From positions 5,559,989-5,623,988 of the forward strand of contig OZ020518.1 of assembly GCA_963971425.1 (NCBI GenBank): a stretch of DNA of 64,000 nucleotides, given 5' to 3'. The DNA is from Bryoerythrophyllum caledonicum. Lineage: Eukaryota > Streptophyta > Bryopsida > Pottiales > Pottiaceae. This document shows positions 5,520 to 53,296 of this stretch, piece by piece (the stretch's first letter is position 1; every line of letters starts with the position of its first letter). The translations under genes and the position numbers were made by a program. The notes under the pieces were generated by a model. It did not search any database. It saw only the letters and a program-made list of their open reading frames with translations, and was not told where the DNA came from.

Positions 5520-5760
5520 TTAACCCCTAATTTCTTTGACAATCTCACACCAAAAACACTTTAATATTGCTCCTTTTAGTGCAATGAGTAAGGAAGAACA
5601 ATATACTTTCATTTCTAGTTTTAAGCATTGGATCTCAATTAACAGTGAATGAAAAAAGTCCCAAGGTGGGCTTTTGCAAATCTTAGGCATGTTTCCATGG
5701 TTGCAATTTATATTTGCAATTCTTGAAATTTTGTATTGAGATGCAAGAAGACGAGATGTA

Positions 5761-7457
5761 CAGTCCCCTCCAGAAAGTAAGGTAACCCCATGGGTCAGCT
5801 CACATGTGTTACACAGTTGATTTGATTGAACATCCAAATTAGGAAGTTGATTCAGCCAAGATAAATTGCAAATATATAATTGTAGTATCTAAGAATGCAT
5901 TTGTGAGCCGTCAGTGGCTTCTAGACTAGCAATTCCATGTGTTACATCAATTTGAGTACCATGTGGTATGTGAAGCTTTATGAAGCAATGTGGATATTTT
6001 TGAGAATAGGGAGCTCTATGAGTACTAAAGTCGCTCAATTTTGGTTGCAATGTCATGAAGTTGAGTAGTTGTGATGATCTGTGAGTTGAGAAGGTCACTC
6101 AAACCTAGAAGGTTTTGCTACAAAATTTGATATCTTGTGATGTTGTAGTTGTTGGTTTAATAGCTCATAGAATTGTTGTGTCTGTCACTAAGCAAATTCA
6201 TTTTCACTCTCCCTCACTAGTACCATGACAAGTTACTTCTTATCAGTAGAAGAGCAAAGTTTTATTGTAGGAATGAACACAGCTGGAGCATATTATAGTG
6301 AAATTGCACTCGTAGTTGGAAAATCAAAAAAGATAATTTCATTAGTCCTCAAGAGATATCGAGAGCGAGGTTCAGTACAAATAGCAAAAAGATCTGGACG
6401 TCCAAAAAAGTTGCAAGAGATTGATCGACGAGTTCTCAAATATGAGATTGTCAAGAATTGTAGAATACCTTTTGCTGAACTTGCTAGTAGCTTGCCCATT
6501 TCTGTGAGTATGAATACCATACGAAAAGAAGTGCATGACCTTGGATCTGGCAACCGAATTGCCAAGAAGAAACCTTTCTTGAATGAGAGACACAAGAAAT
6601 TGAGGTTAACCTTTGCGAAAGAGCATAAACATTGGACGGTCGAACAATGGAAGTTGGTTATTTGGAGTGATGAGTCGTCATTCGAGATCGGTGCTTATTC
6701 ACGTCAAACTCGAGTATGGCGGACTACTTCACAAAAATTTCATTCACAATGTTTAGCACCAACATTCAAGTCTAGAAGGATGTCAATCATGGTTTGGGAT
6801 GCTTTTACTACAACTAGTAAGTGTTTTTTGATTTTAATTCCTTTTAGACAACGCACTCCTATGGACTTTGTAGAGATTGTATGTGAGCAAGGATTATTGC
6901 CCTACTTCTACCACCATGCTAACCATGAAGAATTAGTATTTATGTCGGATGGTGCACCAACACATACAACCAGAGTGATAAAAAATTGCATCAAAGATAT
7001 TGGTTTAAAGATGCTCAATTAGCCTCCAAATTCTCCTGACTTAAACCCTCTAGAAAACATGTGGATGATTTCTAAAGATAGGGTCCAGAAGATGAAAAGA
7101 CCAAAAAACAAAGAGCAAATGTGGAATGCAGTGCAAGCAGCTTGGGAGAGCATATCAACGGAGATGTTAGACAAGTTAGTTGCAAGCATGCCAAAACGGA
7201 TACGAGCTGTTATTGATGCCAGAGGAGGTAGCATACAGTGGTAGTAGTAGTTGTTGATCAATCCAATTTTCAGGTTAGAAATTATTACAAAAGATTTGTA
7301 TTTTTTTTAGCAAGAAGCTTCTACATGTGTAAATGTATGGGAAAAGAAATCTATATTTGATGTGTACATGAGGTAGCATTAGTCAAGTTTTCTTGTTGGT
7401 CTCTTCATGTGTGTGTGAGAAACAACAAGCGGTTACCTTACTTTGTGGAGGGGACTG
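5761..7457 (+). mobile_element. Tc1-like transposon, complete ends (1697 bp)
   Basis: Terminal inverted repeats of 27 bp (5761-5787 and 7431-7457) match at 26 of 27 positions; the outermost bases are CAGT. They are flanked by TA at 5759-5760 and 7458-7459, the target duplication of the Tc1/mariner superfamily. The sister arm of the surrounding hairpin has a single TA at 9058-9059 at the corresponding place, giving an empty site. One transposase pseudogene lies inside, with about 440 bp of 5' and 210 bp of 3' non-coding DNA. Confidence 0.95.
6225..7244 (+). pseudogene. Tc1-like DD34E transposase, one nonsense codon
   Basis: The frame opens at ATG 6225 and reads about 340 codons, with a single in-frame TAG at 7020-7022. 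The N-terminal half has two helix-turn-helix-like parts separated by GRPKK (near residue 60), as in Tc1 transposases. The catalytic part shows the first Asp in WSDESSFE, the second in FMSDGAPTH, and the Glu in NSPDLNPLENMW. The second Asp and the Glu are 34 residues apart, the Tc1 DD34E signature. The stop falls directly before PPNSPDLNPLE at a position where Tc1 proteins often have Trp, so TGG to TAG is likely. The stop removes the catalytic Glu, so the product should be inactive unless read through. No frameshift is visible, so inactivation looks recent. Confidence 0.93.
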
Positions 7458-9926
7458 TACGTGGGAGTGTAGTTTATATTCTCATCGGACTTGTAGAAAA
7501 AAAGTTATGCCATCTTAAAGAAAATATTGTCGAGTGCGCGTACGTCGGGCAAGTCCAAAACTTTTCCTAGGACACTCTGAGATTTTCAATACTAGCAAGA
7601 AATATTATTTCGTTTCAAGTTGTTGAAAAACATTTATTGTCTTTAGTGATAAACGCATTTTTATCCAAAGTCAAATATTCTCACACATTGCCACACATTG
7701 TTTGGCAAGGAACCAAGAAAACTTCTTCTTTTCCACATAAAACTTTGATATCTTTATAAAAAATAAAAAAATAAAAATTCTGTTACTAGACGTGGTGCAA
7801 AACTTGTTCTTGTCTATTTGGATTATCCTTCTAAAACATGTTTTATTCCCAAAAAAGTTAAAACATGAATTGGCACGTTTTGAACCTCCACTCCTTACAC
7901 AATTTTTTGGAATATGCTTCACCTCTTCTCTACCTCTAAAATTGGTGCACAAGCAGTTAATAACATGATCAACATGATGATATAAAATTTAGACCTTCTG
8001 TAGTGAAAACTTTACGACCAAGTGTCAAAGTCAAAGTTTGATGATGTATTCAACGCAGGGATAAAAATGAACCTCTTTTTCTACTTCAAACACTATGATC
8101 ACACAATCCATGCAGTCAAAGTTGATGAAATATTGTTAGTACATTTTTTTATTACTTGTTAAATGAGATCCTACGGTTAAAACTCGAACTACATTTTTTT
8201 TGTTTCCTTCCTTACTCATTGCACTAGAATTAATAGTTTTGAAGTGTTTTTGGTTTGAAGTTGTCGAGGAAATTTAGACCAAAAACACTTCAAAACTGTC
8301 CAATAAGGAAGGAAGCAAAAAAATGTAGTTCAAGTTTTAACCGTAGGATCTCATTTAACACATACTAAAAAAACTATCGACAAAATTTCATCAACTTTGA
8401 CCGCACCGATTGTGAGATTATATTGTTTGAAAGAGAAGAAATGGTTCATTTTCATTCCTAAGAGGATCAACAAACCTTGACTTCACTTGGTGTCAAAGTT
8501 TTGTACTACATAATGTTTCCATTTGATATCATCATGTTGATCATGATATAAACTCCTTGTACACCAATTTTTAGAGGTAGAGAAAAGGTGTAGCCTATTC
8601 AAAAAAATTGTGCAAGGAGTGGAGGTTCAAAACTTGCCAATTTACGGTTTAGTTTTTTGGGAACAAAATATGTTTGAGAATGATAATCGAAATGTTAAAA
8701 AAGAAGGTTTACACCTCATCTTTTAATAGAAAAAATAAAAAGTGAAAAACATGAAGATCTCAAAGTTTCATGTAGAAAAGAAGAAGCTTTTTTGGTTCCT
8801 TGCCCGATAAAGTGTGGCAATGTGTGAGAATCTTTAACTTTGGATAAAATGTGTTTTTTCGCTAAAGACAAGAAATAGTTTTTGACAATATGAAAGGAAA
8901 TAATATTACTTGCTAGTATTGAAAATCTCAAATTTACTACAGTCTTAGCAAAAGTTTTTGGACTTGCCCATCGTACCTGCACTCAACAGTTTTTTCTTCA
9001 AGACGACATAGTTTTTTTCCTGTAATCCCGATGAGAATAAAAAATTATACTCCCACGTACCTCTGCGTCTCCGTACAAAATTTCAAGAATTGCAAATATA
9101 AATTGCAACCATGGGAACGTGCCCAAGATTTGCAAAAGCCCACCTAGGGACTTTTTCCATTTACGGATTAAGTGACATACTCACAAATTTTCATAAACCT
9201 TGACTACATAGGTTGAAAGATTATTGTGTTTGAAACAGAGAAAAGGGCTTGTTTTCTTCCCTATGTTTAGTGGATCAACAAATTTTGACTTCACTTGGTG
9301 TCCAATTTTCACACTATACAAGTTTTAAATCCATTACCATCATGTTAAGCATGGTATTAGTTCCTTGTACACCTATTTTTAGAAATGGAGAAATGGTGTA
9401 GCATATTCAAAAACATTGTGCAAGGAGTAGAGGTTCAAAAATTGTCAATTCATGTTATATTTTCTTGTGAGCTTAATATCTTTTAGAATGAGAATCCAAA
9501 TGGTCAGTAATAAGGTTTATATCACATGATAAAGTTTTATTTGTACCTTGCTCCACAATCTGCAACAATGTGTGAAAAATGTTTGACTTGGATTTATATG
9601 TTATTTTTCACTGAAGTCAAGAGAATTTTTTGGACAGTATGTAAGGATATGATATTACTTGCTATTATTGAAAATCACACATTCAAGAGAGTGTCCTAGA
9701 AAAAGTTTTGGAGTTACCCAACATCCCCGCTCTCTCCATTAGAACTTCAAAACCCTATAAGTTTTTCATTAAATGTTGGATTTAGGGAAAAAATTGGACC
9801 CACACAAAGCTTTTAGTAATGTCCACCTACAATAAATTTCAAAGAAAAATGTGTTGAATTGATACCATAAAAACCCGCCCAAAACTTCAAGAGTCCTCAA
9901 GGGACTTTTGAAAATTTAGGGATTAA

Positions 9927-12054
9927 ACATCAACCACGAATAGTATGTACAAGCACGTAATTTACTTTATAAATATAACCCAAAAATTTATAATAATAAA
10001 ATAGGAAGACTTACACATTTGGATTGAAGATTTGTCCATAACATCTTTCATTTGGAGGTCATTTCAATATTTGAACCTTACAATTCATGTTCAAATACAA
10101 CACCATACATGTAGAATATTGTGACGCCCAGTGACACCTTCTGACAATCAAGGATTGACGTCAAAAGAAAGAAGTTTCCATGAATGGACTTTTTATGAAT
10201 TGATGCACGTTCCTGTGGTATCAATCTAACAATTTTCTTTGAAGTTTTTGTTGTAGAAGGATAAATTTTACCCATTCAAGACAAGAGGCCCATAGGTGGT
10301 CACTTTTGGAATAATTTGCAAATTTGGTGCACCGGTATTTCATCTCTATCTGATCTTCAGTCAAAGTTAAATTTGAAGAATCAATGCTCTTCCAACAAAT
10401 GTGGCGAGAATGTGCGCCATAGTCTGATGGACAAATTATAGTGATTTCCATGAAGATCAGTTGTGATGAAATGAATCCAATGTGTATATGATGTTCTACA
10501 CAATCTATTATATGTGTAGGTTCTCCCAAGCCTAGCCACTCTTGTAGGCCTTAAAGGAGTAGGAGCATTTATTGTGGAAGTATGTATTTTTTATAAAACA
10601 TTCAATGAAATAATTATGCTACCCAAATTTTTTTTTTTACAAAGGGGGACTATAGGCAATTAACCAAGATTCTCAACACAATTTGAGCTTTTTGTATAAA
10701 AGATGCCAATATAACTTCCTTTGAAATTTTACAAAATAAATGCTTTCTACAGTGCAAAGCTTTGAGTCCAAGAAAGAGTCGATGTTTCTTGGTACCTTGC
10801 AGAAAAAAATGTTCATTCTTCGACATTCATAATCACAAAACTTTGGGATTTTCCATCTTTAGTTTTTTTAGTTTTTCTTAATACATGCGACCAAAATAAT
10901 ATTTATGTTCACCATTTGAATGAGATTTTACATGAGATTGAGACCACAACAATAATGTACTTCGTTGATTTTGAACCCCTTCATGTTGCAAGATTGTAAT
11001 GAATATGTTAAACACCTCTAACATATGTAAAGGTTTTTGGACACGTACCTTACATCATATAGATTGTGATGGTGAGAGTGACACCTCAACATAGAGTAAA
11101 TTTTCACTTTCTCAACAACGCTTAGGTGCGTATTGAATTACATTAGGGTGCAAAAAGACAATTGAACTAGCTCTAAATGCTATAATCTTCCTATCCATGT
11201 GATCCAAAATTCTTAGGAAAAATATGTTCTACCAAAAGTACAAGATCTTATTCTTATTATTGTCATCGTCGCTATGGTCTCCGAGTACCCATTCTTTTAA
11301 GGCTTGTGTGGGGTCTAACCCTAAAGAGTCATAATCTTGTTCATAAGAAGTACTTATTTTAAAAACTGCAGTCATGTCTGAAAAACACATGTGGTTACAT
11401 CACACTCTTTCTTTTACATTATACAGTACTCCACTTTAGTTTTTGTTAAACTTAAAAAAGTGAAAAGATAATGGCCTTCAAGTTCAATGAAGAAGAGGCA
11501 ACTCTTTTTCATACTACATGTACAAGGCCAGTACAATGGCCCGTAATAAAAGGCTACAATTTGTACAAAACACAACCTCGTCATAGATATTGCAATAGAG
11601 GGAGAAAGAAAGAAAGAAATAAAAACAAAAAAAATTAAATGATTTTTAACAAATGTTAAAGAAGAGGGAGTCACTGCTCGTTTTGAAAATCCAACGGTGG
11701 GACAGAGCACAATAATTAAATATTCGAAACATGGGCCTTTTGCAAGAGATGGTTGCATTGGGAAAGTATATCGTCTCGTTGTGGAAAATCATGGATGTCT
11801 GACATGTACCATGTCATACGTGTTTCCAACAACTTCGCATAAATTATATGTCGTTCATTCAAGTTGGCACCCTTGCCTGCAGACACAAAATGGACAGCTT
11901 CCTGCAGCGGACAATCATCATTTGCGATCGGGTGAATGGCTCGGGGAACTGGACCAGGGAACGGGGCTGACTGGGTACAATGTCCGGGAGGATGAGGTGT
12001 GGGCCCCATGGACTCACCACTCATCTGAGGTAAACCCGTACGCTAATTGACAAA
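9927..12054. other. Gene-free stretch with a degenerate D-like repeat
   Basis: No gene is supported. At about 10400-10558 there is a worn copy of TTAA family D (shared words GTGATTTCC, AATCTATTA, TAGGTTCTCCCA and GGCCTTAAAGG). Most of the remainder shows no pattern I recognise. An open frame of 117 codons at 11697-12050 has another open frame opposite it and no family motif, so it is not called. Confidence 0.4.
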
Positions 12055-12869
12055 TTAACCCCTAAAGACCCAATGTCCCCTCGGGGGACATTTTGAGTTT
12101 GTGTAGGGTACCACGTTCTCAAATTTAGGCATGATCTTCTAAGGTTTTATTTTATTGAATAAGCAACTTTTCGTTAGCTTTATATAGACCTACTTTTCGT
12201 AGAAATTAGACTTACCGTCCAAAAGTTACAGTTCTTTTTGGGTAACATATACAAATAGTGCAGCGTTTAGGTGTGACATATAACAAATACTATAGCAAAA
12301 CAATGATTAACTCTATATTCTATAGAAATTTGAGTTTCTATCCATTTTTTTAAAAAAAATTGTTTTGAAAGGAAATGGAAATCTTTGCATCTATCGTACG
12401 GATTTTTTAATTTCGAAAATATGCAAATGATTTGATACATGCAAAACTTGAAGTGTATTGTTGATTTTGAGCACATAATTGCATTGCTGGATTTTTAAGG
12501 ACATCCTCTACCCTTCTTCTACTTCTAAAATTTGGTGCACATGTGCCTAACACGATCCTTTTAAAGTTAAAATTAGAAAATCACATACTCTAGTGCTAAA
12601 AGATGCCATAGAAGGTGGTCAAAGTTTATTGAAAGTGTTTAGTATGACCTCGAGAAGAGTTTGTGTCTCACTTCAAAGGCCAATATCTTTCAATCCGCGC
12701 GGTCAAACTGAACAAAAGTTTTATTATATGCAGTTATACAATCCTAATACAAGATCCTACGGCTAGATATGTTAGAAATGTGTTTATTTGCATTTTGTGT
12801 TGAGTGCTTTGAAACTGGCAATTTTCAATGAGTTTGGGTGCTAAAATGCCTTGGGCCTTTAGGGGATAA
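12055..12869 (-). mobile_element. TTAA family A element A4, diverged
   Basis: Begins TTAACCCCTAAAGACCC and ends CCTTTAGGGGATAA, about 815 bp. Only parts of the interior (for example AATTTGGTGCACA and the GATCCTAC block) still match other A copies. A subterminal palindrome TGTCCCCTCGGGGGACA follows the left end. Non-coding. Confidence 0.65.
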
Positions 12870-13419: not shown

Positions 13420-14039
13420 ATTAAAGCTGGTGCTTGTGCAGCAAATGCGATGGATCATATTCAAATTTAAAAACAAATAGATGATCACGTTTGTACACAT
13501 CAATCCAGGATGTGAAGTTTGAATGTTTGAAAATTCAATTTGCTTTGTGATGGTGGAAATTCATCATGCCGCTTCCAAGTGCATCAAAGACTGCTGAACC
13601 AAAGCCCATAATAATTCACCATACAAAATAATGTCCACAATACGAAACAAAATAATGGCCACAATATGGAACAAAATTCAATAATTCCCAGCCAGGGCCT
13701 TTTGCCGGTGTCAGCCAAATGCATGGCTTTGTATCATGGGATTGTGTTGAAAGTGTGAAAGGAAATTTGATGTTTGAATGAAGTTGCCGAGGAACCCCAC
13801 GCATACCCCAAGCATACGGCGGAAGTCTCAGAATATGAGAAGATGTCTCGGGCATGTTTGCATGATTTTATTTCGTATTTTGTTTGAACATGCAAGAAGA
13901 TAAGAGCTACATAGGATCAAAATTTTCTTATTATGATTGGGCCTATAGATAAAAGAATCATGCCATTTTCAAAAAAAACTGTCAAATGTGAGGACTTCAG
14001 GCAACTTCTAGAAACGTTGTTACAAACTTCTATTAAGGA
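13420..14039. other. Gene-free stretch
   Basis: No gene or named repeat supported. An 18-bp direct repeat unit (ATGTCCACAATACG / ATGGCCACAATATG) is present at 13630-13665. Confidence 0.35.
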
Positions 14040-15613
14040 TTATATTTTTATTACAAGTAAGTAAAATTGTTTTTATTTGAGATTGTTATAGAAAAACACC
14101 TTCTATAGAGTATAATTATCACTTTAAGACAAGTCAAAGTTTCCTCACCTTTTTTGGGCTAGGTTCACAAAACAATTTCATTTCCTCATAAAAATTGGAG
14201 ATCTTCATTTATTTTTCCTAATGTATTTTCTACTTCAAGAAGAAGCATAGACCTTATTTTTGGCTATTCGGGCAACTTTTGAACCTCTTCTCATTTTAAA
14301 ATTTTGAAAACAATCCATTAGTACTCTTTTACCTTTGAAAATGAATTATAGGAAACTAACATCACTTACATCATAATGGTATAAAAATCAGAACTTTTGT
14401 AAAGCAAAACTTTTACACCAAGTAAAGTCAAAGTCCAATGAGCCTTTAACCCCTAAGGTACCGTGACAGTTTTCCACCAAAAACACTTCAAAATTAATGG
14501 ATTCTAGTGCAATGAATAAAGAAGGTAACAAAAAAAATTATTTTTAGTTCTGACCGTAGGATCTCAATTAAGACTTATTAAGTAATACATACTCAAAATT
14601 TATTAAACTTTGACCGCACGGATTGAAAGATTATAGTGTTTGAAGTCAAAAAATGGTTCATTTTCTTCCCTGCGTTTAGTGGATCAACAGACTTTGACTT
14701 CAGTTGGTGTCAAAAAATTTCACTACACAAGGTCTAAATCTATTACCATCTTGTTAAGCACGATGTTAGCTCTTTACACACCAATTTTTAGAGGTAGGGA
14801 CGGGGTGTAGCATATTCAAAACAAGTGTGCAAGGAGTGGAGGCTCGAAATTTGTTAATTCACACTTTAATTTTTTTTGAACTTAACACATTTTTGATTGA
14901 TAATCCGAATGGTTAATAAGAAGGTTTACATTACATATTGTTGTCGAAAAAATAAAAAGTGAAAAATATGAAGATCTCTAGGTTTTATGTGGAAAAGAAG
15001 AAGTTTTTTTGGTACCTTGCCCGACAATGAGTGACAATGTTTGAAAATGTTTGACTTGGGTTGGTATGCTATTTTTCACTAAAAACAAGAACTTTTTTTT
15101 GACAATATGGAGGGAATTAATATTACTTGCGAGTACTGAAAATCTCACTTTCAATAGAGTGTCCTATCAAAAGTTTTTGGAGGTGCCCGAGGTGGCTGCC
15201 CTCCCCATTTAAAATTCAAATCCCTATAACTTTTTCATCAAATGTCCAATTTAGGAAAAAATTGTTTTCCCACTAATATTTGGTAATGTCTTTCTGTAGT
15301 AAAAATTTCAAAGAAGAATATTGGAAATTGATACCATAGGAACCTGACCGAACTTTCAAAAAGCCCATTTTTGACACTTGGTACCTTAGGGGTAAAAACA
15401 CGAAGCGGATTTTTGTTTATTCACTCCAATTAATGAAATATTTCAATCCGTAAGGTCAAATGTCTTGAAATTTTGTGACCATATAAATTTAGTAGTATTG
15501 ATTGAGATCTCACGGTTGAAGAAAGGAACTAAGATTTTTTTATTTTTTTTCACTAGCATGAACACGTCTACAGTGTTTATGGTGAGAAATTGCAAAAGGA
15601 TTTTAGGAATTAA
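14040..15613 (-). mobile_element. TTAA family A element A5, split by A6
   Basis: Pieces at about 14040-14445 and 15396-15613 together follow the reverse-oriented family A order. The left piece stops in AGTCAAAGTC and the right piece resumes in the part that begins AATATTTCAATCCG. The right end is TTTTAGGAATTAA (TTAA at 15610-15613). The left end is missing or too worn to place. The interruption is exactly another A copy in the opposite orientation. Confidence 0.65.
14446..15395 (+). mobile_element. TTAA family A element A6 (950 bp), nested
   Basis: Full-length copy. It starts TTAACCCCTAAGGTACC and ends GGTACCTTAGGGGTAA (right TTAA mutated to GTAA). Diagnostic blocks appear in the family order: GACCGTAGGATCTCAATTAA, GACTTCAGTTGGTGTC, TTTTTAGAGGTAGG, TTGCCCGACAATG, and GTGCCCGAGGTGGCTGCCC. 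No reading frame is conserved between copies, so it is non-autonomous. Confidence 0.85.
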
Positions 15614-16189: not shown

Positions 16190-17944
16190 TTCAACCTAAA
16201 TTACCAAAAGTCCCCTCGGGGTACTCTTGAAGGTTTGACCAGGTTCCTACTATGTTAGGTTATAACATTATTTTTGGAGAGTTTTACTGTAGATGGAAAT
16301 TACTAAAAGCTTTGTGTGAGTCCAATTTTTCCTAAATCTAACATTTAATGAAAAGTCATAGGGGTTTGAAGTTCAAATGGCAAGAGTAGGCACATTGGGC
16401 AACTCCAAAAACTTTTGCTAGGATACTTTATTGAATGTGAAATTTTCAATTCAAGAAAATAATAATATTTATTTTCATATTAAAAAAAACATCTCTTGTC
16501 TTTAGTGAAAAATAGCAAGTCAAACATTTTCACACATTGTCGGGCAAGGTACCAAAAAATCTTCTTCCTTTCCAAATAAAACTTAGAGATCATCATATTT
16601 TTACTTTTCATATTCCCCGCGGAAATATGTGGCGTAAACCTTCTTGCTGACCATTCGGATTCTCATTCTAAAACATACTAAGTTCACAAAAAAATACAAC
16701 TTGAATTGACAATTTTTGAACCTTCACTCCTTGCACAATTTTTTTGAACATGCTACACCCTTTCTTTACCTCTAAAAATTGTTGTACAAGGAACTAGTAT
16801 CATGCTTAACATGGTGGTAATGAATGTAGACCTTGTGTAGTGCAAAAAATGGACACCAAGTGAAGTCAAAGTATGCTGATCCACTAAATGCAGGGAAAAA
16901 AAGGAACCCTTTTCCCTACTTCAAAAACTATAATCCTTCAATCCGTGCAGTTACAATTTATGAAATTTTGTGAGTATGTTTCATAATCCTTAAGCGCCCA
17001 CGAAGCCCAAAATGGGACTCCGGAGATGCTAAAACTCAATTTGCATGAAATCCATGAGCACCTAGGCTTTGAGATACCAAATTCACATTTTTGCACACAA
17101 TAGATGAACGCTCTTCATGAATTAGATCATGATTTGGATTTATAAAACTCTTGGAAAAGCTAGGAATACAACACAAAATACATCAAATACACTAAAATAC
17201 AATGAATACAATGAATACTATGCCACATACTATGTTGTATTTCACACACATGCACATTGATTTTGGTCTTAAGTTTTGATTGAACATCGTCTTTAAGACA
17301 TTCTTCATTGTTTTGTGATTGTTGATCTCTCTCTTCACATACAAAACTTATGTTTGGATTCGTATAAGGCTGGAACATTATTGAATACAATCAAGTAGAA
17401 AAAAACAAAAAAAACACCAATAATTGTGTATAAATATTTTCTTCACATATGATATATCAATGCAAAGCTATCAATCTAGTGCACATGTGAACTGCTCTAA
17501 TTCAAAGTCGAAAACTTCTTGCAAGAATCTATTGATGGTTAAAGTAGTACACCCTCCAAAATCCACACTTTTCATTACAAGTATACGTTAACTATAAACA
17601 CTATAATCTATTCCATCAGCCGTTGGATGTTGTGCAAAATATCCCCAAAGGTCATGTCATGGGCTAAGTTCAATTTTGTAAGGTTAGGTATTAATATTAG
17701 GCATTGTATTTCCATCAAATCCGATTCAAAGAAAAAATCAGCAGAAATCTTGGTTTTTCCAGAAACATCCCTCGGCGGTAAAGGGTTAAAGAGTAGTTAA
17801 GGAGAGAGGAGTTAACAAGTCTTAGTTGAAATCCGATAGTTGAAACTAGAGATAGAAGTTTTTTTTATTCCTTGTTCATTGTACTAAAAAAAGCAGTTTT
17901 GAAGCATTTTTGGTGTGAAATTCAGAAAGTAATTTAGGGGTTAA
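16190..17944 (-). mobile_element. TTAA family A element A7, interrupted by B1
   Basis: The left end TTCAACCTAAATTACC carries the subterminal GTCCCCTCGGGGTAC block. The right end, AATTTAGGGGTTAA, has TTAA at 17941-17944. The family order breaks at 16989 and resumes after 17789 with the AAGTCTTAGTTGAAATCC part, so one B element separates the two pieces. Confidence 0.75.
16990..17789 (+). mobile_element. TTAA family B element B1 (800 bp), nested
   Basis: Bounded by TTAA at 16990-16993 and 17786-17789. It begins TTAAGCGCCCACGAAGCC and ends GGCGGTAAAGGGTTAA. It is about 85-90 percent like B2 at 21856-22662 by eye, with long identical blocks such as GAATACAACACAAAATAC. An open frame of 76 codons on the minus strand (17160-17390) is also present in B2 with a similar sequence, but no domain is recognised. 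Otherwise non-coding. Confidence 0.8.
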
Positions 17945-19091: not shown

Positions 19092-20117
19092 TTAACTTTA
19101 TTGCACTACGTGCATGTTTCTGCTAAACCAAGATTTGTGCTGATTTTTTTTTCTTTGAACTGATTTTTATGGAAATGTAATGCCTAATTATAGAATCCAA
19201 CATTACAAAATTGAACTCAAACCATGACCTAATTTTTTGGGGAAAATTTGCACAACATGTGACAGTTGATGGAATAGACTACCCTACGCCGTGGTCACTT
19301 TTATTCACAATCTAATCAAGATGGAAAGTGTCCAATTTTTTGGAAAGTTCAAGAATTTTTTCTAGGTGATACCTATGGAATGCCATGGTGCTACCTGTAT
19401 AATGCCTATGTGATACCTATGTGATACCTAGGTGATATCCATTGTGCACAAACCAATGCATCCAAGAAAATGATATCATTTTGGTAGGAAGGTGCCGAAA
19501 GTGACCCCTATGTACGGAATAGTGTTTTAAAGTTATCGTAAATTGGGAGTATTTTGTGGATTTCATGGATGTTCTACTCTATCCATCTATAGATTCTTGC
19601 AAGAAAGTTTATACTTTGAATGAAAGAGGTTCAGATGTTCTCTAGGTTGATAGCTTTGCATTTACATATCGTATGTGAAGTAAACATTTATACATCCATA
19701 CTTTTGTTTAGTTGATTGTATACAAAAATGTGCCCAAGTTGTACAAATCAAAAGGAGGTTTTATATGCCATGAGAGAGGTCAACAATACAAAACAAGGAA
19801 GAGTCTCTTAAAGGTAAATTTCAATCAACCTTTGAGACCAAAATCATTTTGCGTGTGTATGAATACAACATAGTATGTGGCATGATATATGTAGATATTC
19901 ATTGTATTTTAGTGTATATAATGTATTTTGTGATGTATTCCAAGCTTTTTCATGAGCTCTATAACTCCAAATTGTGATATGACTTTTGCAACGTGTACTT
20001 GTAATGTGTGCGCAAATCTGAACTTCAATTTCACAAACTAGTCATGAATTTCATGCAAATTGAGATTTAACACATCAAGAGACCACATTTAGGTTTCCTT
20101 AGGTGCTAAAGGATTAA
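19092..20117 (-). mobile_element. TTAA family B element B3, interrupted by C1
   Basis: Reverse-oriented B copy with TTAA at 19092-19095 and 20114-20117 (right end GGTGCTAAAGGATTAA). Its middle matches B2 well (for example CAATTTTGTATTG-like blocks and the TTGATAGCTTTGCAT block). A 238-bp insert at 19278-19515 interrupts it. Confidence 0.75.
19278..19515 (-). mobile_element. Element C1 inside B3
   Basis: Flanked by GGAATAG at 19271-19277 and 19516-19522, a direct duplication of at least 7 bp. The ends are inverted (GTGGTCACTTT... against AAAGTGACC). The core carries repeated GGTGATACCTA words. Related sequences lie at 20783-21080 and 42545-42880. The class is undetermined; the duplication length would suit hAT or Mutator-like elements. 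Confidence 0.6.
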
Positions 20118-21829: not shown

Positions 21830-23490
21830 TTAACCCGTAAGGGACCAAGTGTCCCTTAACCCTTTAGCGCCCAGGAAGCTTGAAATGGGACTCCGGAGGT
21901 GCTAAAACTCAATTTGCATAAAATCCATGAGGAATTAGGCATTAAGAAACGAGGTTCAGATTTGCCCATATAATACATGAACGCTCTCCAATAATCAGAT
22001 CATGATTTGGATTTATAAAATTCTTGGAAAAGCTAGGAATACAACACAAAATACACCAAATACACTAAAATACAATGCATAAAGTGAATACCATGCCACA
22101 TACTATGTTGTATTTCACACACATGCACATTGATTTTGGTCTTAAGTTTTGATTGAACGTCGTCTTTAAGACATTCTTCATTGTTTTGTGATTGTTGATC
22201 TCTCTCCTCACATGCAAAACTTCCGTTTTGATTTGTATAAGGTTGGAACATTTTTGTATACAATCAAGTAGAAAAAAACAAAAAAATCACCAATAATTGT
22301 GTATAAATATATTCTTCACACATGATACGTCAATGCAAAGCTATTGATCTAGTGCACATATGAACCGCTCTAACTCAAAGTCAAAAAACTCTTGCAAGAA
22401 TCTACTGATGGTTAAAGTAGTACACCCTCCAAAATCCACACTTTTCACTACTAATATACAGTAATTTTAAACACTAGAATCTATACCATCAGCCGTTGGA
22501 TGTTGTGCAAAATTTCCCCAAAGGTCAGGACATGGGTTAAGCTCAATTTTGTAAGGTTAGGTATTAATATTAGGCATTGTATTTCCATCAAATCCGATTC
22601 AAAGAAAAAATCAGCAGAAATCTTGGTTTTTCCATAAACATCCCTAGGTGGTAAAGGGTTAAATTGACGATTTTGATTTTTGACAGATTCCTTAAATTTG
22701 ATTTTCTTTATCAAGAACTTTGTGGAGGTATTTTTTTATTAGTTTTGGATTCATGGTTTGAATTTTGTACCACTCAAAGTTACAGATGGGGACTTTGGGC
22801 AACTCCAAAATTTTGCTAGAAGTTTCTATTGACATTGATATTTTCATACTTATAAAGAATAATATCTTCTTTGAAGCTGTCAAAAAAAATTCTTGTCTTT
22901 AGTGTAGAAGCATTTTACTCAGGTCAAACATATTTCGTGCAAGTGGGGAAAAAAACTTCATCTTTTCCACATAAAACCTAGAGACCTTCATTTTTTCACA
23001 TTTTATTTTTTTAACAACAACACGTGGTGAGAACCTTCTTATTGACCATTTGGATTATCATTCTAAAACATCTTTAGTTCACAAAAAAATAAAAAGTGAA
23101 TTGACTTGTTTTGAATCCACTCCTTGCACACTTGTTTTGAATGTGCTACACCCCTTCTCTACCTCTAAAAAATGGTGAATAGGGAACTAACATCATGCTT
23201 AACACAATGATAAAAGATTTAGACCTTGTATAGTGCAAAAATTTAATACCAGCTGAAGTCAAAGTTTGTTGATCCACTCAACGCACGGAAGAAACTGAAC
23301 CATTTTCTTGACTTCAAACACTATAATCTTCAATCCGTGCGGTCAAAGTTTTTGATATTTTGTGAGTATGTTGCTTAGTAAGTCTCAATTAAGATCCTAC
23401 AGTCAAAACTATATACGTAAGGTTTTTTCCTTCCTTACTCATTCCACTTAAATCAACAATTTTGAAGTGTTTTTGGTGTGAAATTGTCAT
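21830..23490 (-). mobile_element. TTAA family A element A8, inside E1, holding B2
   Basis: Begins TTAACCCGTAAGGGACCAAG at 21830. After the B2 insert it follows the reverse family A order (TTTGGGCAACTCCAAAA, the CCTTGCACACTTG-like block, AACGCACGGAAGAAA, GGTGTGAAATTGTCA) to about 23490. The outermost right end is missing or worn. Confidence 0.7.
21856..22662 (+). mobile_element. TTAA family B element B2 (807 bp), nested
   Basis: TTAACCCTTTAGCGCCC at the left and GGTGGTAAAGGGTTAA at the right, each including TTAA (21856-21859, 22659-22662). Best preserved B copy. Non-coding apart from the short open frame shared with B1. Confidence 0.85.
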
Positions 23491-23699
23491 AGTCCAAGAT
23501 AAACTTCATGAGAATGTAACTCTAGGATCTTCTTCTAATCTTATATGAGATGATGTGGTAAAAAAATTGTGAATTTTGACCATACATATTGAAAGATGGT
23601 TGTAGTCAAAGTGAAAAAATGTCCTTCCATGGGACACTTGAGTCTAGTTTCTTGAGGGATTAATCATTTCATACAATTCTTAACAAATATGTTTTTTTA

Positions 23700-28115: not shown

Positions 28116-29067
28116 TTAACCCCTAATGGACCAAGTGTCAAAAATGGGCTTTTTGAAAGTTTGGTAAGGTTCCTATGGTGTCAATTTCCAACATTCTTCT
28201 TTGAAATGTTTACTACAAAAAGGCATTTCCAATACCTTAGTGGAAATTTGTTTTCCCTTAAATTGGACATTTGATGAAAAGGTTATAGGGTTTTGAACTT
28301 CAAATGGGGAGAGCGGGCACCTCGGGCACCTCCAAAAACTTTTGCTAGGACACTCTATTGAATGTGAGATTTTCAATACTTGCAAGTAATATTTTTCCCT
28401 TCGTATTGTTGAAAAAAAATTCTTGTCTTTAGTAAGAAAAAACATAACAACCCAAGTCAAACATTTTCACACATTCTCACTCATTGTCCAGCAAGGTACC
28501 ACAAAAACTTCTTCTTTTCCACATAAAACCTAGATATCCTTATATTTTTCACTTTATATATTTTCCACAACAATATGTGGTGTAAACCTTCTTGTCGACC
28601 ATTCGGATTATCAATCTAAAACATATTAAGTTCACAAAAAAAAAAAAGTGTGAACTGGCAAATTTTGAACCTCCACTCCTTGCACAGTTGTATTGAATAT
28701 GCTACACCAGTCCTCTACCTCTAAAAATTGTTGTGTAAGGAACTAACATCATGCTTAACAAGATGGTAATGGATTTAGACCTTGTGTAGTGCAAAAATTT
28801 GACACCAAGTGAAGTCAAAGTCTGCTGATCCACTGAACGCATGAAAGAATATGAACCACTTACTTGACTTCAAACTCTATAATCTTTCAATCCGTGCGGT
28901 CAAAGTGTAAGAAATTTTGAGTACATACTACTTAATAAGTCTTAATTGAGATCATACGGTAAGAACTAGAAATCAAAGTTTTTGTTTCCTTCTTTGTTCA
29001 TTGCACCAGAATCCAACAATTTTGAAGTATTTGTAGTGTAAAACTGTCACGGTTCCTTAGGGGTTAA
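28116..29067 (-). mobile_element. TTAA family A element A9 (952 bp)
   Basis: Full-length copy in reverse orientation: TTAACCCCTAATGGACC at the left and TTCCTTAGGGGTTAA at the right. Exactly the same length as A11. Family blocks are well kept (GGGCACCTCCAAAAACTTTT, TGCTTAACAAGATGG, TCAATCCGTGCGGTC). Non-coding. Confidence 0.88.
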
Positions 29068-30108: not shown

Positions 30109-30376
30109 TTAACCCTTTAATGCCTATGAGGCCCTGGCATGGTCCCACAATTGGCCATTGTCTCTAGCGTACTCTGGACATTTTTTGAGCTCCTCATTAG
30201 CTTTTGATCGGATATCTTTAATTCCAATCCATGCATGCATCAACAAACTACAGTGATTTCCGTGAAGTGGGGTCCTGCTGAAATGTATCTTCTATGTAGA
30301 TGATGGTTTGCCTAATCTATTACTCTTGTAGATTCTCCCAGGCTCTCATGGTCCACTTAGGCGTTAAGGGGGTTAA
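30109..30376 (+). mobile_element. TTAA family D element D1 (268 bp)
   Basis: TTAACCCTTTAATGCC at the left and GGCGTTAAGGGGGTTAA at the right, TTAA at 30109-30112 and 30373-30376. Shared blocks with D2-D4 include CACAATTGGCCATTGTC, GAGCTCCTC and GTAGATTCTC. Non-coding MITE. Confidence 0.82.
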
Positions 30377-32793: not shown

Positions 32794-33780
32794 ACCAAGC
32801 AGTTGGTGCCAAACAAAAACAAACTGGCAACAATCCTACAGAGACAACAAAACTAATGACAAGACCTAGTCCATGAAACCATGGGGTCTCTTTCAATGCA
32901 CACGACCTCAAAACAACTACAATTGGAGTCAAAATGAGTGGAAGCTTTAACCCTTTAACGCATCAGGAGAACTTTGGAGAATTTGCAAGGGTAATAGATT
33001 AGGTAGAACATCATCTATTAAGGGCTACATTTCAGAACAACCTCAATTTGCGGAAATCACTGTAGTTTTGTAGTCCTTATATGGATTGGAGATTGGAAAG
33101 ATCTGTTGGAAAGCTAACAAGGAGCTCAAAATGTGCTCGAAGGACATAAGAAACGATGATCAATTGTGGAAAGAGTTAGAGGAGTAAAAACACCAAAATC
33201 GACCCTGCAGGGCCTCGTAGGTATTGAAGGATTAATCTTGTTCAAGTTAGAGTTGACCGTGATGACCCTACCCTAGACAATTCTATCATATCCGGTGAGG
33301 CCTTGCCAGTTTGTACTCTACATTTGCTACTATTGCTAGCAGTGTTGATTAAACACCAAGTCTAATGGTTCAAAGAGTGATACATATTAAAAGGAGCCAA
33401 TTTAATCCTACTCATTAGGCACTCCAGCAACAACAAATTATTGTTCAAGGTTAGGTTTCAACTCATTGACTACGACTGGCATTGCTAATGGTGTTAAGAA
33501 TTTAGGAACATGGTCACACTCCCAAAGGCAATGAACCACTCTCCACCTCCCTGTTGTTGCACACTATGCAACTCCCATCAATACAAGCATGACTTTGTGC
33601 TCTCCATTGGTTGACCACAATCTCTTTGTGCCACAACTACCAGAGAAAGCCAAATACTTTGCCAGCTCTTTCAGGATCCCACATAGTAGTCCGTTTTGAA
33701 ACTCAAATTTACAATTCGCGAGTGAAACTCAAACTACAGTTCCACAATGGGTACATTTCATTGCAACCCTACTTCACAAA
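32794..33780 (-). pseudogene. LINE 3' fragment, interrupted by D2
   Basis: The minus strand at about 33500-33600 reads a zf-RVT core: Cys-Ile-Val-Cys-Asn-Asn-Arg-Glu-Val-Glu-Ser, and after one frameshift HCLWECDH. The DNA resembles the LINE fragment at 600-1000 (shared words around CTCTTTG(T)GCCA, CCAGA(G/T)AAAG and CAATTGG(A/T)G(C/T)CA). Family D element D2 splits it at 32947-33235. Frames are broken. Confidence 0.65.
32947..33235 (-). mobile_element. TTAA family D element D2 (289 bp), nested in LINE
   Basis: TTAACCCTTTAACGC at the left, TATTGAAGGATTAA at the right. Reverse orientation relative to D1, with shared blocks GAAATCACTGTAGTTTTG and AGGAGCTCAAAATGTGC. Confidence 0.78.
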
Positions 33781-34344: not shown

Positions 34345-35950
34345 AATTATCGCACTTGCTACTACGTCAAGAAGTTGGACATCGACGCTTCAGGCTGGCA
34401 TTCAGTCTCGACAACTTGGAAGACACGTGATCGAACCATGGAAGCGGGAGGCGAGCTATCCATCTTCACACGGTCTGAGTTACCACCGACTTACTGCGAC
34501 GTCGTACGCTGACAACAGCGTCCGCGATTATGTAAAGAATACTGGTTGTTTCCGTTAACCTACATACGTGTTTTCATGAGTTTTGATCGTACATGACGTG
34601 AAAACATCAGCGTCGATCCTTTGCAACGGTCACACTGGGAAGCGTCACGAGGATCTGGACGTGAGGACGGAGAGTTCTGGTATCGTTCAACAACACTCTC
34701 AACACATCGAAGTAGTATCGATGGATCATCAACCGACACTCTATTAATCAGTCATCAGTCGCGCGTGGTACTACCCCAAGCTGGACGTAGAATCAACGCT
34801 TCAGGGTGCATTCAGTCTCGATAACTTGGAAGACACGTGATCGAGCCATGAAAGCGAGAGGCGAGTTTACCCATCTTCACACGGTCTGGCGTACCACCGA
34901 CTTACTGCAGCTCTACGACGTCGTACGCTGACAACAGCGGCCCCGATTATGTACATAGTACTGGTTGTTTCCGTTAACCTGCATACGTGTATTCATGAGT
35001 TTTGATCGTACATGTCGTGAAAACATCAGCGTCGATCCTTTGCAACGGTCACACCGGGAATCGTCATGAGAATCTGGACGTGAGGACGGAGAGTTCTGGT
35101 ATCGTTCAACAACACTCTCAACACATCGAAGTAGTATCGATCGATCATCAACCGACACTCTATTAATCAGTCATCAGTCGCGCGTGATACTACCCCAAGT
35201 TGGACATGGAATCAACGCTTGAGGGTCCATTCAGTCTCGACAACTTGGAAGACACGTGATCGAACCATGAAAGCGAGAGGCGAGCTACCCATCTTCATAC
35301 GGTCTGAGTTACCACCAACTTCACTCTACCACGTCGTACGCTGACAACAGCGTCCACGGGCTCCGTCCGTTAACCTACATACGTGTATTCATGAGTTCTG
35401 AACGTACATGACGGGCGTCATGGCGATGGGTGACGTGAGATCGTCAGCGTCGATCCATGGCAACGGTCTTCGGGGGAGGCGTCAGGACGGTGATCCGACC
35501 GGAGAGTTCTGGTATCGATCAGCAACACTAGTCTCATGAGACCCACACATCGAAGTAATATCGATCGATCATCAACCGAGAGTCCAACAATCACTCATCA
35601 ATCGCACTTGCTACTACCTCAAGAAGTTGGACATCAACGCTTCAGGCTGCATTCAGTCTCGACAACTTGGAAGACACGTGATCGAGCCATGAAAGCGAGA
35701 GGCGAACTACCCATCTTCACACAGTCTGAGGGTACCACCGACTTACTGCAACTCTACGACGTCGTACGCTGACAGCAGCGTCCATGATTATGTACATAGT
35801 ACTGGTTGTTTCCGTTAACCTACATACGTGCATCAATAAGTTCTGATCGTACATGACGGGCGCCATGGCGATGGGTGACGTGAGATCATCAGCGTCGATC
35901 CGTGGCAACGGTCATACCGGGAAGGAAGCGTGAGTCAGGAGGGTGATCGA
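34345..35950. repeat. Fourfold tandem repeat, unit about 410-422 bp
   Basis: Four head-to-tail copies. The anchor TTCAGTCTCG starts at 34401, 34811, 35230 and 35652 (spacings 410, 419, 422). Each copy holds CACGTG (34424, 34834, 35253, 35675), CGTCGTACGCTGACA and TGGTTGTTTCCGTTAAC-like blocks, though copy 3 lacks part of the last. It is GC-richer than the flanks. No conserved frame runs through the copies. The last copy ends about 1 kb before the gene at 36982, so it may act as an upstream regulatory array or be a young satellite; the sequence does not decide. Confidence 0.9.
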
Positions 35951-43335: not shown

Positions 43336-44287
43336 TTAACCCCGAAGGTACCGTGACAGTTTCACACCAAAAACACTTCAAAATTGTTGGATTCTAGTGC
43401 AATGAATAAAGAAGGAAAAAAATACTTTCATTTCTAGTTTTGACCGTAGGATCTCAATTAAGACTTATTGAGCAACATACTCTCAAAATTTAATAAACTT
43501 TGACCGCACAGGCTGAAAGATTAGAGTGTTTGAAGTTAAGCAAATGTTTCATTTTCTTCCCTTCGTTCAGTGGATTAGCAGACTTTGACTTCACTTGGTG
43601 TCAAATTTTTGCACTACACAAGGTCTAAATCCATTACCATCTTGTTAAGCATGATATTTGCTCCTTGTTTGCCAATTTTTAGAGGGAGGGGAGGAGTGTA
43701 GCATATTCAAAACAATTGTGCAAGAAATTGAGGTTCAAAATTTGCCAATTCACGCTTAAATTTTTTGTGAAGTAAATATGTTTTAAATTGATAATCGGAA
43801 CGGTCAATAGGAAGGCTTACACCACATATTGTTGTGGAAAAAATAAAAAGTCAAAAATATGAAGATCTCTAAGTTTTATGTAGAAAAGATGAAGTTTTTT
43901 TGGTACCTTGCCCAACAGTTTGTGACATTGTGTGAAAATGTTTGACTTGGTATAATATGCTATTTTCACTAAAGACTAGAATTTTTTTTTGACAATATGA
44001 AGGGAAAAAATATGACTTGCTAGTGTTGAAAATATCACATTCAATAGAGTGTCCTATTAAAACTTTTTGGAGGTGCCCGAAGTGCCCGCTCTCCCCATTT
44101 GAAATTCAAAACCCTATAACTTTTTCATTATATGGCGGATTTAGGAAAAAAGTGTTCTCCCATTAAGGTCTTAGTAATGTTCTTCTACAATAAAAATTTC
44201 AAAGTGGAATGTTGGAAATTGACACTGCAAGAACCTGACCGAACTTTCAAAAAGCCCATTTTTGACACTTGGTCCTTTAGGGGTTAA
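43336..44287 (+). mobile_element. TTAA family A element A11 (952 bp), reference copy
   Basis: Complete, with TTAA at 43336-43339 and 44284-44287. It begins TTAACCCCGAAGGTACCG and ends TGGTCCTTTAGGGGTTAA. Inverted ends agree over about 10-12 bp (CCCCTAARGG). It is the best template for ordering the other copies. No open frame is conserved. Confidence 0.9.
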
Positions 44288-44744
44288 TCCAGTCATTGAG
44301 GTTATAGATGAATGGTAACATCCCAAGCACCCGCCGTTATGGAATTGACATGTCTCCGCAAGATTATTTCTCATAATCACGGGTTGCTTGCACATCACGG
44401 ATAGAATTGTCAGTGATTCGCAGGTTGTGTTAAATTTCTCCTTTGATGCAGTGACTTTTGTTGAGTTTTAGGGGCGGTTTACACTATGGACCAAGAACTC
44501 GTCCCATGCACCTCTAAAATCTGTGATTGGCTACACAACTTTTTACATTATTCCATAACTGTTGTGTTGAGTCACTGGTAAATCCTTACAATTTGCATCC
44601 AGTTATTGCGCTCTATCATCATTGCACTAATTGAGTTACATAGCATTTGAATTCATGTAGGTTGCTTCTCTATATGCTTCTTAATAGTAAGTATTCATGT
44701 TGTCGTTGACCGGGACAAACTTACATTGATGTATAATTTAAAAT

Positions 44745-45125
44745 ATGAAGTACTTAGCATGTATATAAAGTAAATAATGGCTAAATAACGGGTGCATTTG
44801 ATTTTTGCATTTACATGGATTTACTTAAGTGGAAATTGAACTCGCCTCCTTGGAGAAGATGAAGATCTATACTTGTCTTTTCTCTATATAAGATTACGGT
44901 CTCTTTTGCGTTTGTTGGCCGATACCTAGGTGTCTAGGTATTGCATAGATGACAAGTATGTAAAATAAATAACGGATATCGAAAACAAAGGATAAATATT
45001 TAAAATAAAAGAATGAGTATATAAATTATATAATGGGTATCTAAAGTAAACAATGAATATACATAGTAAACAATAGAGATATATAAAGTAGATAACACGT
45101 ATATAATGAGTACATCTAGTTTTTG
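44745..45125 (+). repeat. Degenerate AT-rich minisatellite
   Basis: Loosely repeated units of about 18-22 bp of the form GTATATAAAGTAAACAATG(A/G). The array is bracketed by two copies of a TTTTTGCATTTACAT block (about 44802 and 45118). Confidence 0.6.
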
Positions 45126-45142
45126 CATTTACATATGTTTAT

Positions 45143-46093
45143 TTAACCCAAAAGGACCAAGTGTCCAAAAACGACATTTTGAAGGTTTGGTCAAGTTTTT
45201 ATTGTGTCATTTTCTAACAATCATCTTTGAAAATTTTACTGTAGAAGGGCATTGCTAAAACCTTAGTGGGAGAACATTTTTTTTCTAAATCCGACAGTTA
45301 ATGAAAAAGTTATTGGGTTTTGAATTTCAAACACGGAGAACGGGCAAGTCGGGCACCTCCAAAAACTTTTGCTAGGACACTCTATTGAATGTGAGATTTT
45401 CAATAATGGCAAGAAATATTATTTCCTTACAAATTGTCAGAAAAAAATTGTGTCTTTAGTGAAAAATAGCATAGTAACGCAAGTCAAACATTTTCACACA
45501 TTGTCACACATTGTAGGGCAAGGTACCAAAAAACTTCTTCCTTTCCACATAATTCATAGAGATCTTCAAATTTTTTACTTTTTATTTTCCCCAAGGGATT
45601 ATATGGTGTAAACCTTCCTATTGACCATTTGAATTATCAATCTAAAACATATTAAGGTCACAAAAAATATAACATGAATGGGCAATTTTTGAACCTCTAC
45701 TCCTTGCATAGTTGTTTTTAATATGAGCTACACCCCTCCAATACCTCTAAAAATTGGTATATAAGGAACTATCATCATGTTTAACACAATGGAAATGGAT
45801 TTAGACCTTGTGCAATACAAAAAATTTAGACCAAGTGAAGTCAAAGTCTCTTGATTCACTCAACGCAGGGAAGAAAATGAACCATTTGCATGACTTCAAA
45901 CATAATAATCTTTCAATCTTTACAATCAAAGTTTATGAAATTTTGTATGTATGATACTTAATAAGTCTAAATTTAGATCATATGGCCTAAACTAGAAATA
46001 AAAGTTTTTATTTCTTTTTTCATTCATTGCACCAGAGTCCAACGATCTTCAGGTGTTTTTGGTGTGAAACTGTGATGGTACCTTGGGGGTTAA
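45143..46093 (-). mobile_element. TTAA family A element A12 (951 bp)
   Basis: Complete reverse-oriented copy: TTAACCCAAAAGGACC at the left, ACCTTGGGGGTTAA at the right. It lies directly behind the minisatellite at 44745-45125. Non-coding. Confidence 0.87.
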
Positions 46094-51602: not shown

Positions 51603-51900
51603 TTAACCCTTTAAGGCCTACGAGGCCGTGACAGGGTCAATTTTGGTACTTTTGGTCTTCGAACTATTTCCACAATTGGCCATTGTCTATCACGTCTTCT
51701 ATTGCATTTCGAGCTCCTCGTTAGCTTTCCAACGCATCTCTTCAATCTTTAATCCATGCAAGCATTAGCAAACTACATTGATTTCCATGAAGTAGGGTTG
51801 TGTTGAAATGTACCCAATGTGTAAATGATGTTCAACCTAATCTATTATGCTTGTAGATTCTCAGAGGCTCTTGTTGTCCACTTAGGCGTTAAAGTGTCAA
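51603..51900 (+). mobile_element. TTAA family D element D4 (298 bp)
   Basis: TTAACCCTTTAAGGCC at the left; the right end GGCGTTAAAGTGTCAA has TTAA changed to TCAA. It aligns with D1 over its length and has about 30 bp more at the left (GACAGGGTCAATTTTGG), shared in inverted form with the right end of D2. Confidence 0.78.
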
Positions 51901-52228: not shown

Positions 52229-52432
52229 TTTAACTCCTAAATTCCCAAGAGTCCCCTTGAGGGACCTTTGAAGGTTTGGGCAGGTTCCTATATCGTGTCA
52301 AAACATGACATTCGTCTTTGAAATTTTAACCGTAATGGGACATTACTAAAAATAAATTGGGAGTACAATTTTCGTCCTAATCCAACATCTAGTGAAAAAG
52401 TTGTGCTGGTGGAAGCATTGTCCTAGCCCCTA
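52229..52432 (-). mobile_element. TTAA family A fragment A14
   Basis: TTAACTCCTAAATTCCC with the subterminal GTCCCCTTGAGGGAC palindrome, then about 200 bp of reverse-oriented A, cut off at A13. With A13 it forms an asymmetric inverted pair like the hairpin at 5639-9171. Confidence 0.65.
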
Positions 52433-53296
52433 AAGGCCCAAAGGCATTTTCACACTAAAAACACTTAAAAACTGCTTGTTCTAGTGCAATGAGTATGGAG
52501 GAAAATAAAAACTTTTAAATCTACATATTACCGTAGGATCTCAATTAAGACTTATTAAGTAATGTCCTCACAAAATTTTATAACTTTTGGCCGCACGGAT
52601 TAAAAGATTAGAGTGTTTGCAGTGGAGAAAATTGTACATATTCTTCCCTCCGTTGAGTGGACCAACAGACTTTGACTTTACTTAATGTCAAGTTTTTCTC
52701 TACACAAGGTCAAAATTCATTACCATCATGTTAAGCATGATGTTTTTTTTTCTTGTACACAAAATTTTAGAGGCAGAGAAGGGGTGTAGCATACTCAAAA
52801 CAATTGCGCAAGAAGTGGAGGTTCAAAAATTGCCACTTCACATTTTATTTTATTGTGAACTTAATACGTTTTAGATTGATAATTCAAATGGTCAATGAGA
52901 AGGTTTACACCACATATTGATGTGGAAAAAAAAAGTCAACAAAATATAAAGTTCTCTAAGTTTCATATGGAAAAGAAGTAGGTTTTTTTTAATACCTTGG
53001 CCAACAATGTGTGACAATGTGTGAAAATATGCCATTCTCTTGGAGTCAAAGTATGGTGACCCTATCCACGCATGGAAGAAAATAACCATCAAGCACTTTT
53101 CATATGCATGTATCTTACAGTCGGTGCGGTCAAAGTTAAACAAAATTGTTGAGTTTCTTCTTGTAGTAGTTAACTTGAGGTTTCCAAGACTGAAATTAGT
53201 GAGAATATGTTAAAATTAGTCCTGCGATGGCTCATTGTAGAGAGGCAATTTTGGTGTGGTTTTAGTAAAACAAAGCCTTAGGAATTAAGGGGTTAA
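52433..53296 (+). mobile_element. TTAA family A element A13
   Basis: Left end CTAGCCCCTAAAGG (TTAA lost), right end TTAAGGGGTTAA. Forward order is kept up to the TTGCCCGAC-like block; the last third is diverged. Confidence 0.7.

Follow-up and report, generated by a model that had tools for sequence, protein, structure and literature searches.

The piggyBac superfamily of DNA transposons, represented among solved structures by 6x67/6x68 and 9c0f, combines a DDE transposase of the PF13843 type and its three aspartates with a TTAA target and short inverted ends that start with C, all of which recur in the elements described here. Some Sola elements also make TTAA duplications, and Wuneng and Microuli are rice MITEs. 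Both of these plant MITEs duplicate TTAA, and the passage of PMC2872659 that mentions them names no transposase partner. The coral CMITEs, as presented in the same source, are non-coding repeats of uniform length (about 100 bp) with TTAA duplications, CCCT or CCCC starts, and coding relatives in the genome; their CCCCT family (III) is counted there as retaining the CC[C/T]T motif. Kolobok elements likewise duplicate TTAA, but are described with RR...YY termini and a different transposase (PMC9587614).

The original prediction on the DNA analysed here held that piggyBac is hardly known from land plants, and the literature agrees with this, subject to a qualification. A Ceratopteris repeat table with 1,230 PiggyBac elements amounting to 0.00% (PMC6890710), a Stipa table with one 75-bp PiggyBac match (PMC8319324), and a paper on beetle elements (PMC12732532) fit the statement, whereas PiggyBac is listed among plant DNA-transposon superfamilies in PMC10794571 and among angiosperm MITE superfamilies in PMC10004981. 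A passage of PMC10813416 that gives no detail has piggyBac isolated from insects, fungi, and plants. Searches of the open-access PMC literature brought up no description of a piggyBac population in a moss, one moss match being due to the English word "piggybacking".

Here we describe a repeat family, family A, from a window of 64,000 nucleotides (the whole stretch of DNA analysed, C6:5559989-5623988) in a land-plant assembly of 437,360,962 bp and 894 contigs. We conclude that family A is, with very high probability, a non-autonomous piggyBac element, an internal-deletion derivative of a coding element of ~10 kb in the same genome. Like Wuneng and Microuli it has a TTAA target, and it shares with the coral CMITEs the lack of coding sequence, the uniform length, the TTAA duplication, a CCCC start, and coding relatives in the same genome; it differs from the former in having a candidate transposase partner, and from the latter in its length of about 950 bp, its plant host, and inverted ends that are short only, but with long end homology to a coding element.

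Matches of a profile built from the four complete copies (nhmmer, E <= 1e-3) delimit family A in the window, where it takes the following forms, with positions in window coordinates:

14446-15395/6, plus strand: complete copy a; right end reads TAAA; sits in an older, diverged A copy
13981-15597, minus strand: older A copy hosting copy a (profile 769-233 and 204-17, nhmmer)
28116-29067, minus strand: complete copy b, full-length relative of the other three
43336-44287, plus strand: complete copy c, first of two copies in the region singled out by the original prediction; query for the genome search
45143-46093, minus strand: complete copy d, second of the two copies in that region; ends GGGTTAA
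31868-32792, plus strand: near-complete diverged copy (profile 3-952, nhmmer)
7461-8269, minus strand: partial copy (profile 16-829, nhmmer)
8273-9159, plus strand: partial copy (profile 26-942, nhmmer)
9163-9925, plus strand: two pieces (profile 128-492 and 553-952, nhmmer)
16195-17944, minus strand: copy split by a family B insert at 16984-17789 (profile 1-139 and 132-947, nhmmer)
22787-23495, minus strand: partial copy (profile 13-754)
52231-53156, no single strand: three pieces (profile 782-952 minus, 3-606 plus, 144-259 minus; nhmmer)
12055-12868, minus strand: probable diverged A-type copy (profile 2-435 at 12868-12437; TTAACCCCTAAAGACC end at 12055)
5520-5650, plus strand: left end only (profile 1-134, nhmmer)
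10161-11206, minus strand: two weak, diverged pieces (profile 792-947 and 165-564; nhmmer E 6.6e-9 and 5e-8)

The four complete copies measure 950-952 bp and are 80.5-87.4% identical in pairs. Read in A orientation they start with TTAACCCC; two end in GGGGTTAA, and the copy at 14446 ends in GGGGTAAA. The inverted ends of the consensus are short (TTAACCCCTAAGGTACC versus TTAACCCCTAAAGGACC), and the longest stop-to-stop frame in a consensus of 33 copies is 61 aa. In total, 21 profile matches cover 11,498 of the 64,000 bases (18.0%). The original prediction of four complete TTAA-bounded copies at these places, with short inverted ends and no ORF, was thus borne out with the exception of the one TAAA right end, and its estimate that around a fifth of the window is family A was about right. 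About 22 extra bases at one junction of the split copy at 16195-17944 are without explanation, and the copy at 22787-23495 probably has its right end at 21830, where a TTAACCC end lies on the far side of a family B element.

Two further families with TTAA-type ends occur in the window, neither of which matched the 30 transposase loci fetched. Family B, of ~807 bp and with TTAACCCTTT ends, is represented by a pair of copies 90.7% identical to each other, each of which adjoins or sits within an A copy, and by a third, diverged copy; family C is a short, MITE-like set of 268-298 bp with TTAACCCTTTAA starts:

16984-17789, minus strand: family B copy
21856-22662, minus strand: family B copy
near 19114-20117: diverged family B copy
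30109-30376, 32947-33235, and 51603-51900: family C copies

Family A and the two further families with TTAACCCTTT ends together occupy 15,004 bases, or 23.4% of the window. Besides these, a Tc1-like transposase frame of 276 aa lies at 6192-7022 on the plus strand (PF01498, E 4.2e-12), a lone 5S rRNA-like sequence at 2230-2348 on the plus strand (69.9 bits), and large direct repeats of 77-82% identity, offset by about 410-1,250 bp, at 34350-35948.

In the genome as a whole, PF13843, the piggyBac transposase domain, gave 120 matches, the best with E 6.2e-81, after scoring of 116 of 305 candidates; in 19 of the best 30 the match runs without a stop. None of 14 control genomes gave a match, the 13 named ones all being prokaryotes, so that they do not serve as a plant control. 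The catalytic Asp positions, which we take to align with piggyBac D268, D346, and D447, are kept in all 19 stop-free transposases, including that of a 10.6-kb element (L049). Identity among the 19 goes down to 35%, and single linkage at 70% divides them into eight groups. In the two frames scanned, L034 (813 aa; E 2e-81) and L036 (E 3.4e-81), PF13843 is the sole domain, and the former matches the solved piggyBac 6x67 (E 1.4e-28) and piggyBat 9c0f (E 1.5e-24). Homologues were sought among 5.8 billion proteins with the domain, the whole 813-aa frame having given 14 matches that perhaps reflect low-complexity words. The nearest relatives carry no organism names, being metagenome proteins or unannotated ones; the nineteen best are 55-70% identical, and the best relative with an organism name in this domain search is from the sponge Ephydatia (32% identity). 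A FastTree of 83 domains, rooted at the midpoint, leaves out 12 of 95 proteins whose matched stretch was too short; as far as its topology goes, the transposases of this genome group with the unnamed proteins and away from the named animal proteins.

Four transposase loci were extended to establish element boundaries, which yielded two families of coding elements:

C3:17753132-17759686: family 1 element, 6,555 bp
C9:9718676-9725151: family 1 element, 6,476 bp
C4:9618410-9628990: family 2 element (L049), 10,581 bp, with a 494-aa frame
C3:16507305-16518192: family 2 element, 10,888 bp, with a 498-aa frame and one stop in the transposase domain match

The two family 1 copies carry frames of 813 and 805 aa and are 99.4% identical over 5.8 kb in different flanks, which points to recent movement. 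The family 2 copies are 92-95% identical, again with different flanks, and have TTAA with CCCC/GGGG at start and end. At 6.5 and 10.6 kb, including nested insertions, these elements are long compared with intact beetle elements, for which PMC12732532 gives 2.1-3.5 kb. An element larger than A, with the same ends and a piggyBac or Sola transposase, had been proposed as the thing to look for, and the 10.6-kb family supplies one with ends of the same kind and a piggyBac transposase.

The correspondence with family A is closest in family 2. Positions 1-537 of A match the left end of the 10.6-kb element from base 1 (E 1.7e-28) and positions 740-952 match its right end (E 4.3e-33), collinearly, in the correct orientation at both ends and from TTAA onward, while for the central ~200 bp of A (about 538-739) no counterpart was detected in that element. 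Gaps aside, 89 of 101 positions agree within the first 120 bp and 161 of 204 within the last 214 bp; the top score among 200 letter shuffles was -36, against 59, in the first case and -70, against 138, in the second. Identity is 86% over the first 51 bases, and 56 of the last 59 agree as counted by eye in the printed alignment. Family 1 is more distant, with 184 of 253 and 153 of 204 positions identical at the two ends. The ends of A (CCCCTAAGGTACC and CCCCTAAAGGACC) are short and inverted, but have C as the fourth base, where the hallmark CC[C/T]T has T; the coding partners start with the same CCCCTAA. Since its ends are homologous to both ends of a coding family, A looks like an internally deleted piggyBac element, and the piggyBac-type reading originally put forward gains support from coding elements that have A-type ends and carry PF13843.

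The likeness to piggyBac could also have arisen if A were an independent TTAA element, old copies of which were captured by or nested in piggyBac elements. A-type copies, complete or partial, are indeed nested within both coding families, and the delimited coding elements need not be direct parents of A. The homology described above, however, lies at the outermost ends, collinear, rightly oriented, and starting from TTAA, and the nested copies are separate and internal, which makes an origin by capture very improbable. A related proposal, that the interior of A is the 3' region of the L034 gene, was rejected, because the extended loci show the A-type sequence there to be a nested A fragment that lacks ends, whereas the homology that matters lies apart from it, at the outer ends.

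That A might instead be a non-autonomous element of the Sola or Kolobok type was considered because TTAA targets occur in those superfamilies too, and TTAA duplications are on record for Kolobok (PMC9587614). The Kolobok termini reported in that source, 5'-RR...YY-3', stand against the 5'-CCCC...GGGG-3' of A and its coding relatives, and Kolobok was rejected on this ground. Elements with A-type ends encode PF13843 transposases, a Sola origin is unlikely, and taken together the two superfamilies offer a very improbable home for family A.

The distribution of A in the genome bears on how such a derivative could have spread. A search with copy c returned 10,958 first-look candidates. Of these, 40 were scored and, apart from copy c itself, show 86-92% identity. 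Thirty copies were fetched, these being the best matches to copy c and not a random sample (L001 is copy c); all 30 are 948-956 bp long, a few end bases of L002, L014, and L025 being extrapolated, and 27 carry TTAA at each end, the exceptions being L002 and L025, whose left end is without it, and L028, whose right end is. Their flanks are mostly different and they are spread across many contigs. Seven of them (L006, L009, L010, L014, L015, L018, and L019) have both flanks in common at 90-100% identity, and L002 and L004 have one flank in common, so that independent insertions number fewer than 30; the seven appear to be carried within a larger repeat that multiplied later. In the 437-Mb assembly, the 24-bp right end of A occurs at 7,775 sites with up to 3 mismatches and the left end at 2,518, reversed end patterns giving 0 sites. 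The left-end 24-mer is thus three times rarer, which suggests that many right ends stem from copies whose left end has diverged or from related families, the latter probably having the right end of A in common. Being non-coding, uniform in length, and present at thousands of end sites, family A resembles a MITE, but it exceeds the usual bound of <500 bp (PMC2872659), and "non-autonomous deletion derivative" fits it better.

Target sites were assessed by joining the flanks of each of the 30 copies and comparing the joins with all sequence gathered. Four of the joins span an uninterrupted copy of their host sequence. The partial A copy at 7461-8269 of the window is an uninterrupted site for the insertion in L012. 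In all eight pairings of such sites a single TTAA scores higher than none or two: for L027 the scores with none, one, and two are 140/157/148, 127/144/135, and 132/149/140, and in the closest case, L003, they are 129/136/131. Four of the eight host sites read TTAA literally; the other four are without it today, perhaps through divergence. The nested cases within the window are too diverged to discriminate: with none, one, and two TTAA, copy a in its older A host scores 97/97/97, and the family B insertion in A scores 35/39/39. The family 1 copy on C3 sits inside an A copy where the A consensus has TTAA, and here none, one, and two give 148/165/163, one and two being barely separated. The TTAA target proposed for family A accords with these sites, and the possibility raised alongside it, that empty sites would show TTAA not to be duplicated, runs against all eight pairings. 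A satellite or LTR retrotransposon fragment, also named at the outset as a contrary reading and suggested by the abundance of copies and by the head-to-head pieces clustered near 7.4-9.9 kb, has a negligible probability, given dispersal on many contigs with mostly different flanks, a fixed length of ~951 bp, TTAA at both ends, the lack of TG...CA ends, the uninterrupted sites, and ends common to transposase-coding elements.

Several lines of evidence bear on the host. Plant genes in the window comprise a WRC domain, a GDP-mannose dehydratase, and a JMJ25-type demethylase region, which is 38-58% identical, at 37-93% query coverage, to the named plant homologues among the matches listed. Two plastid contigs, C894 and C821 (L067 and L068), have intact psaA/psaB and are 86% identical over 5.2 kb; in psaA/psaB of C821, several Ser codons stand where C894 has Leu or Phe, as C-to-U editing sites would, and C821 is probably the plastome of a second plant in the sample. 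Six chromosome regions with plastid insertions were compared (8 of the 16 chromosome rows), one of them on the contig of the window, and all six are closer to C894 (82-98%) than to C821 (75-89%). The psaB sequences of both contigs have the same best chains among solved structures, 8htu, 6l35, and 7ksq, which we take to be from Physcomitrium patens, and this comparison does not separate the two plastomes; the plastid insertions and rpoA were more informative. In most mosses rpoA has been transferred to the nucleus; the rpoA domain PF01000 gave one strong match on chromosome C3 and two weak ones on C6, and no match on C894 or C821, plastid contigs that as assembled may be incomplete. The plant genes, plastid insertions, psaB, and rpoA together identify the host as a land plant, most likely a moss. 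Its assembly has 13 contigs >= 20 Mb, unlike the two Sphagnum assemblies with their 20 chromosomes (PMC9946827).

The simplest history for family A would be one internal deletion in a family-2-like element, which left about 0.5 kb at the left and about 0.2 kb at the right of an element of ~10 kb, followed by amplification in trans. A transposase of the family 1 or 2 type may bind the ends of A, excise it, and reinsert it at TTAA, and such cut-and-paste movement, together with carriage within larger repeats, could have given rise to thousands of copies. That the transposase of the coding elements acts on A is what we infer. The source of the transposase was raised as a question in the original prediction, and a strong candidate for it is present in the same genome.

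Both the kind of element and its mechanism are known; the surprise lies in the host, a land plant, and in the abundance, diversity, and apparent recency of the elements. Judging by 120 domain matches, eight groups among the 19 transposases compared, two families delimited from end to end, and a pair of elements 99.4% identical, it is likely that the piggyBac population of this moss nuclear genome is large and diverse and was mobile until recently, that about a fifth of the window consists of its deletion derivatives, and that piggyBac transposition is, or until recently was, active in one lineage of land plants or more. On that reading, piggyBac would no longer count as a trait of animals, fungi, and protists that has left occasional traces in plants. 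To go by a title cited in PMC12732532, marker excision in plants has been done with an animal-derived piggyBac, for which reason the native plant piggyBac transposases that this genome offers are of interest. With complete elements, derivatives, and target sites all readable in one land-plant genome, whether moss piggyBac was inherited or horizontally acquired becomes directly testable.
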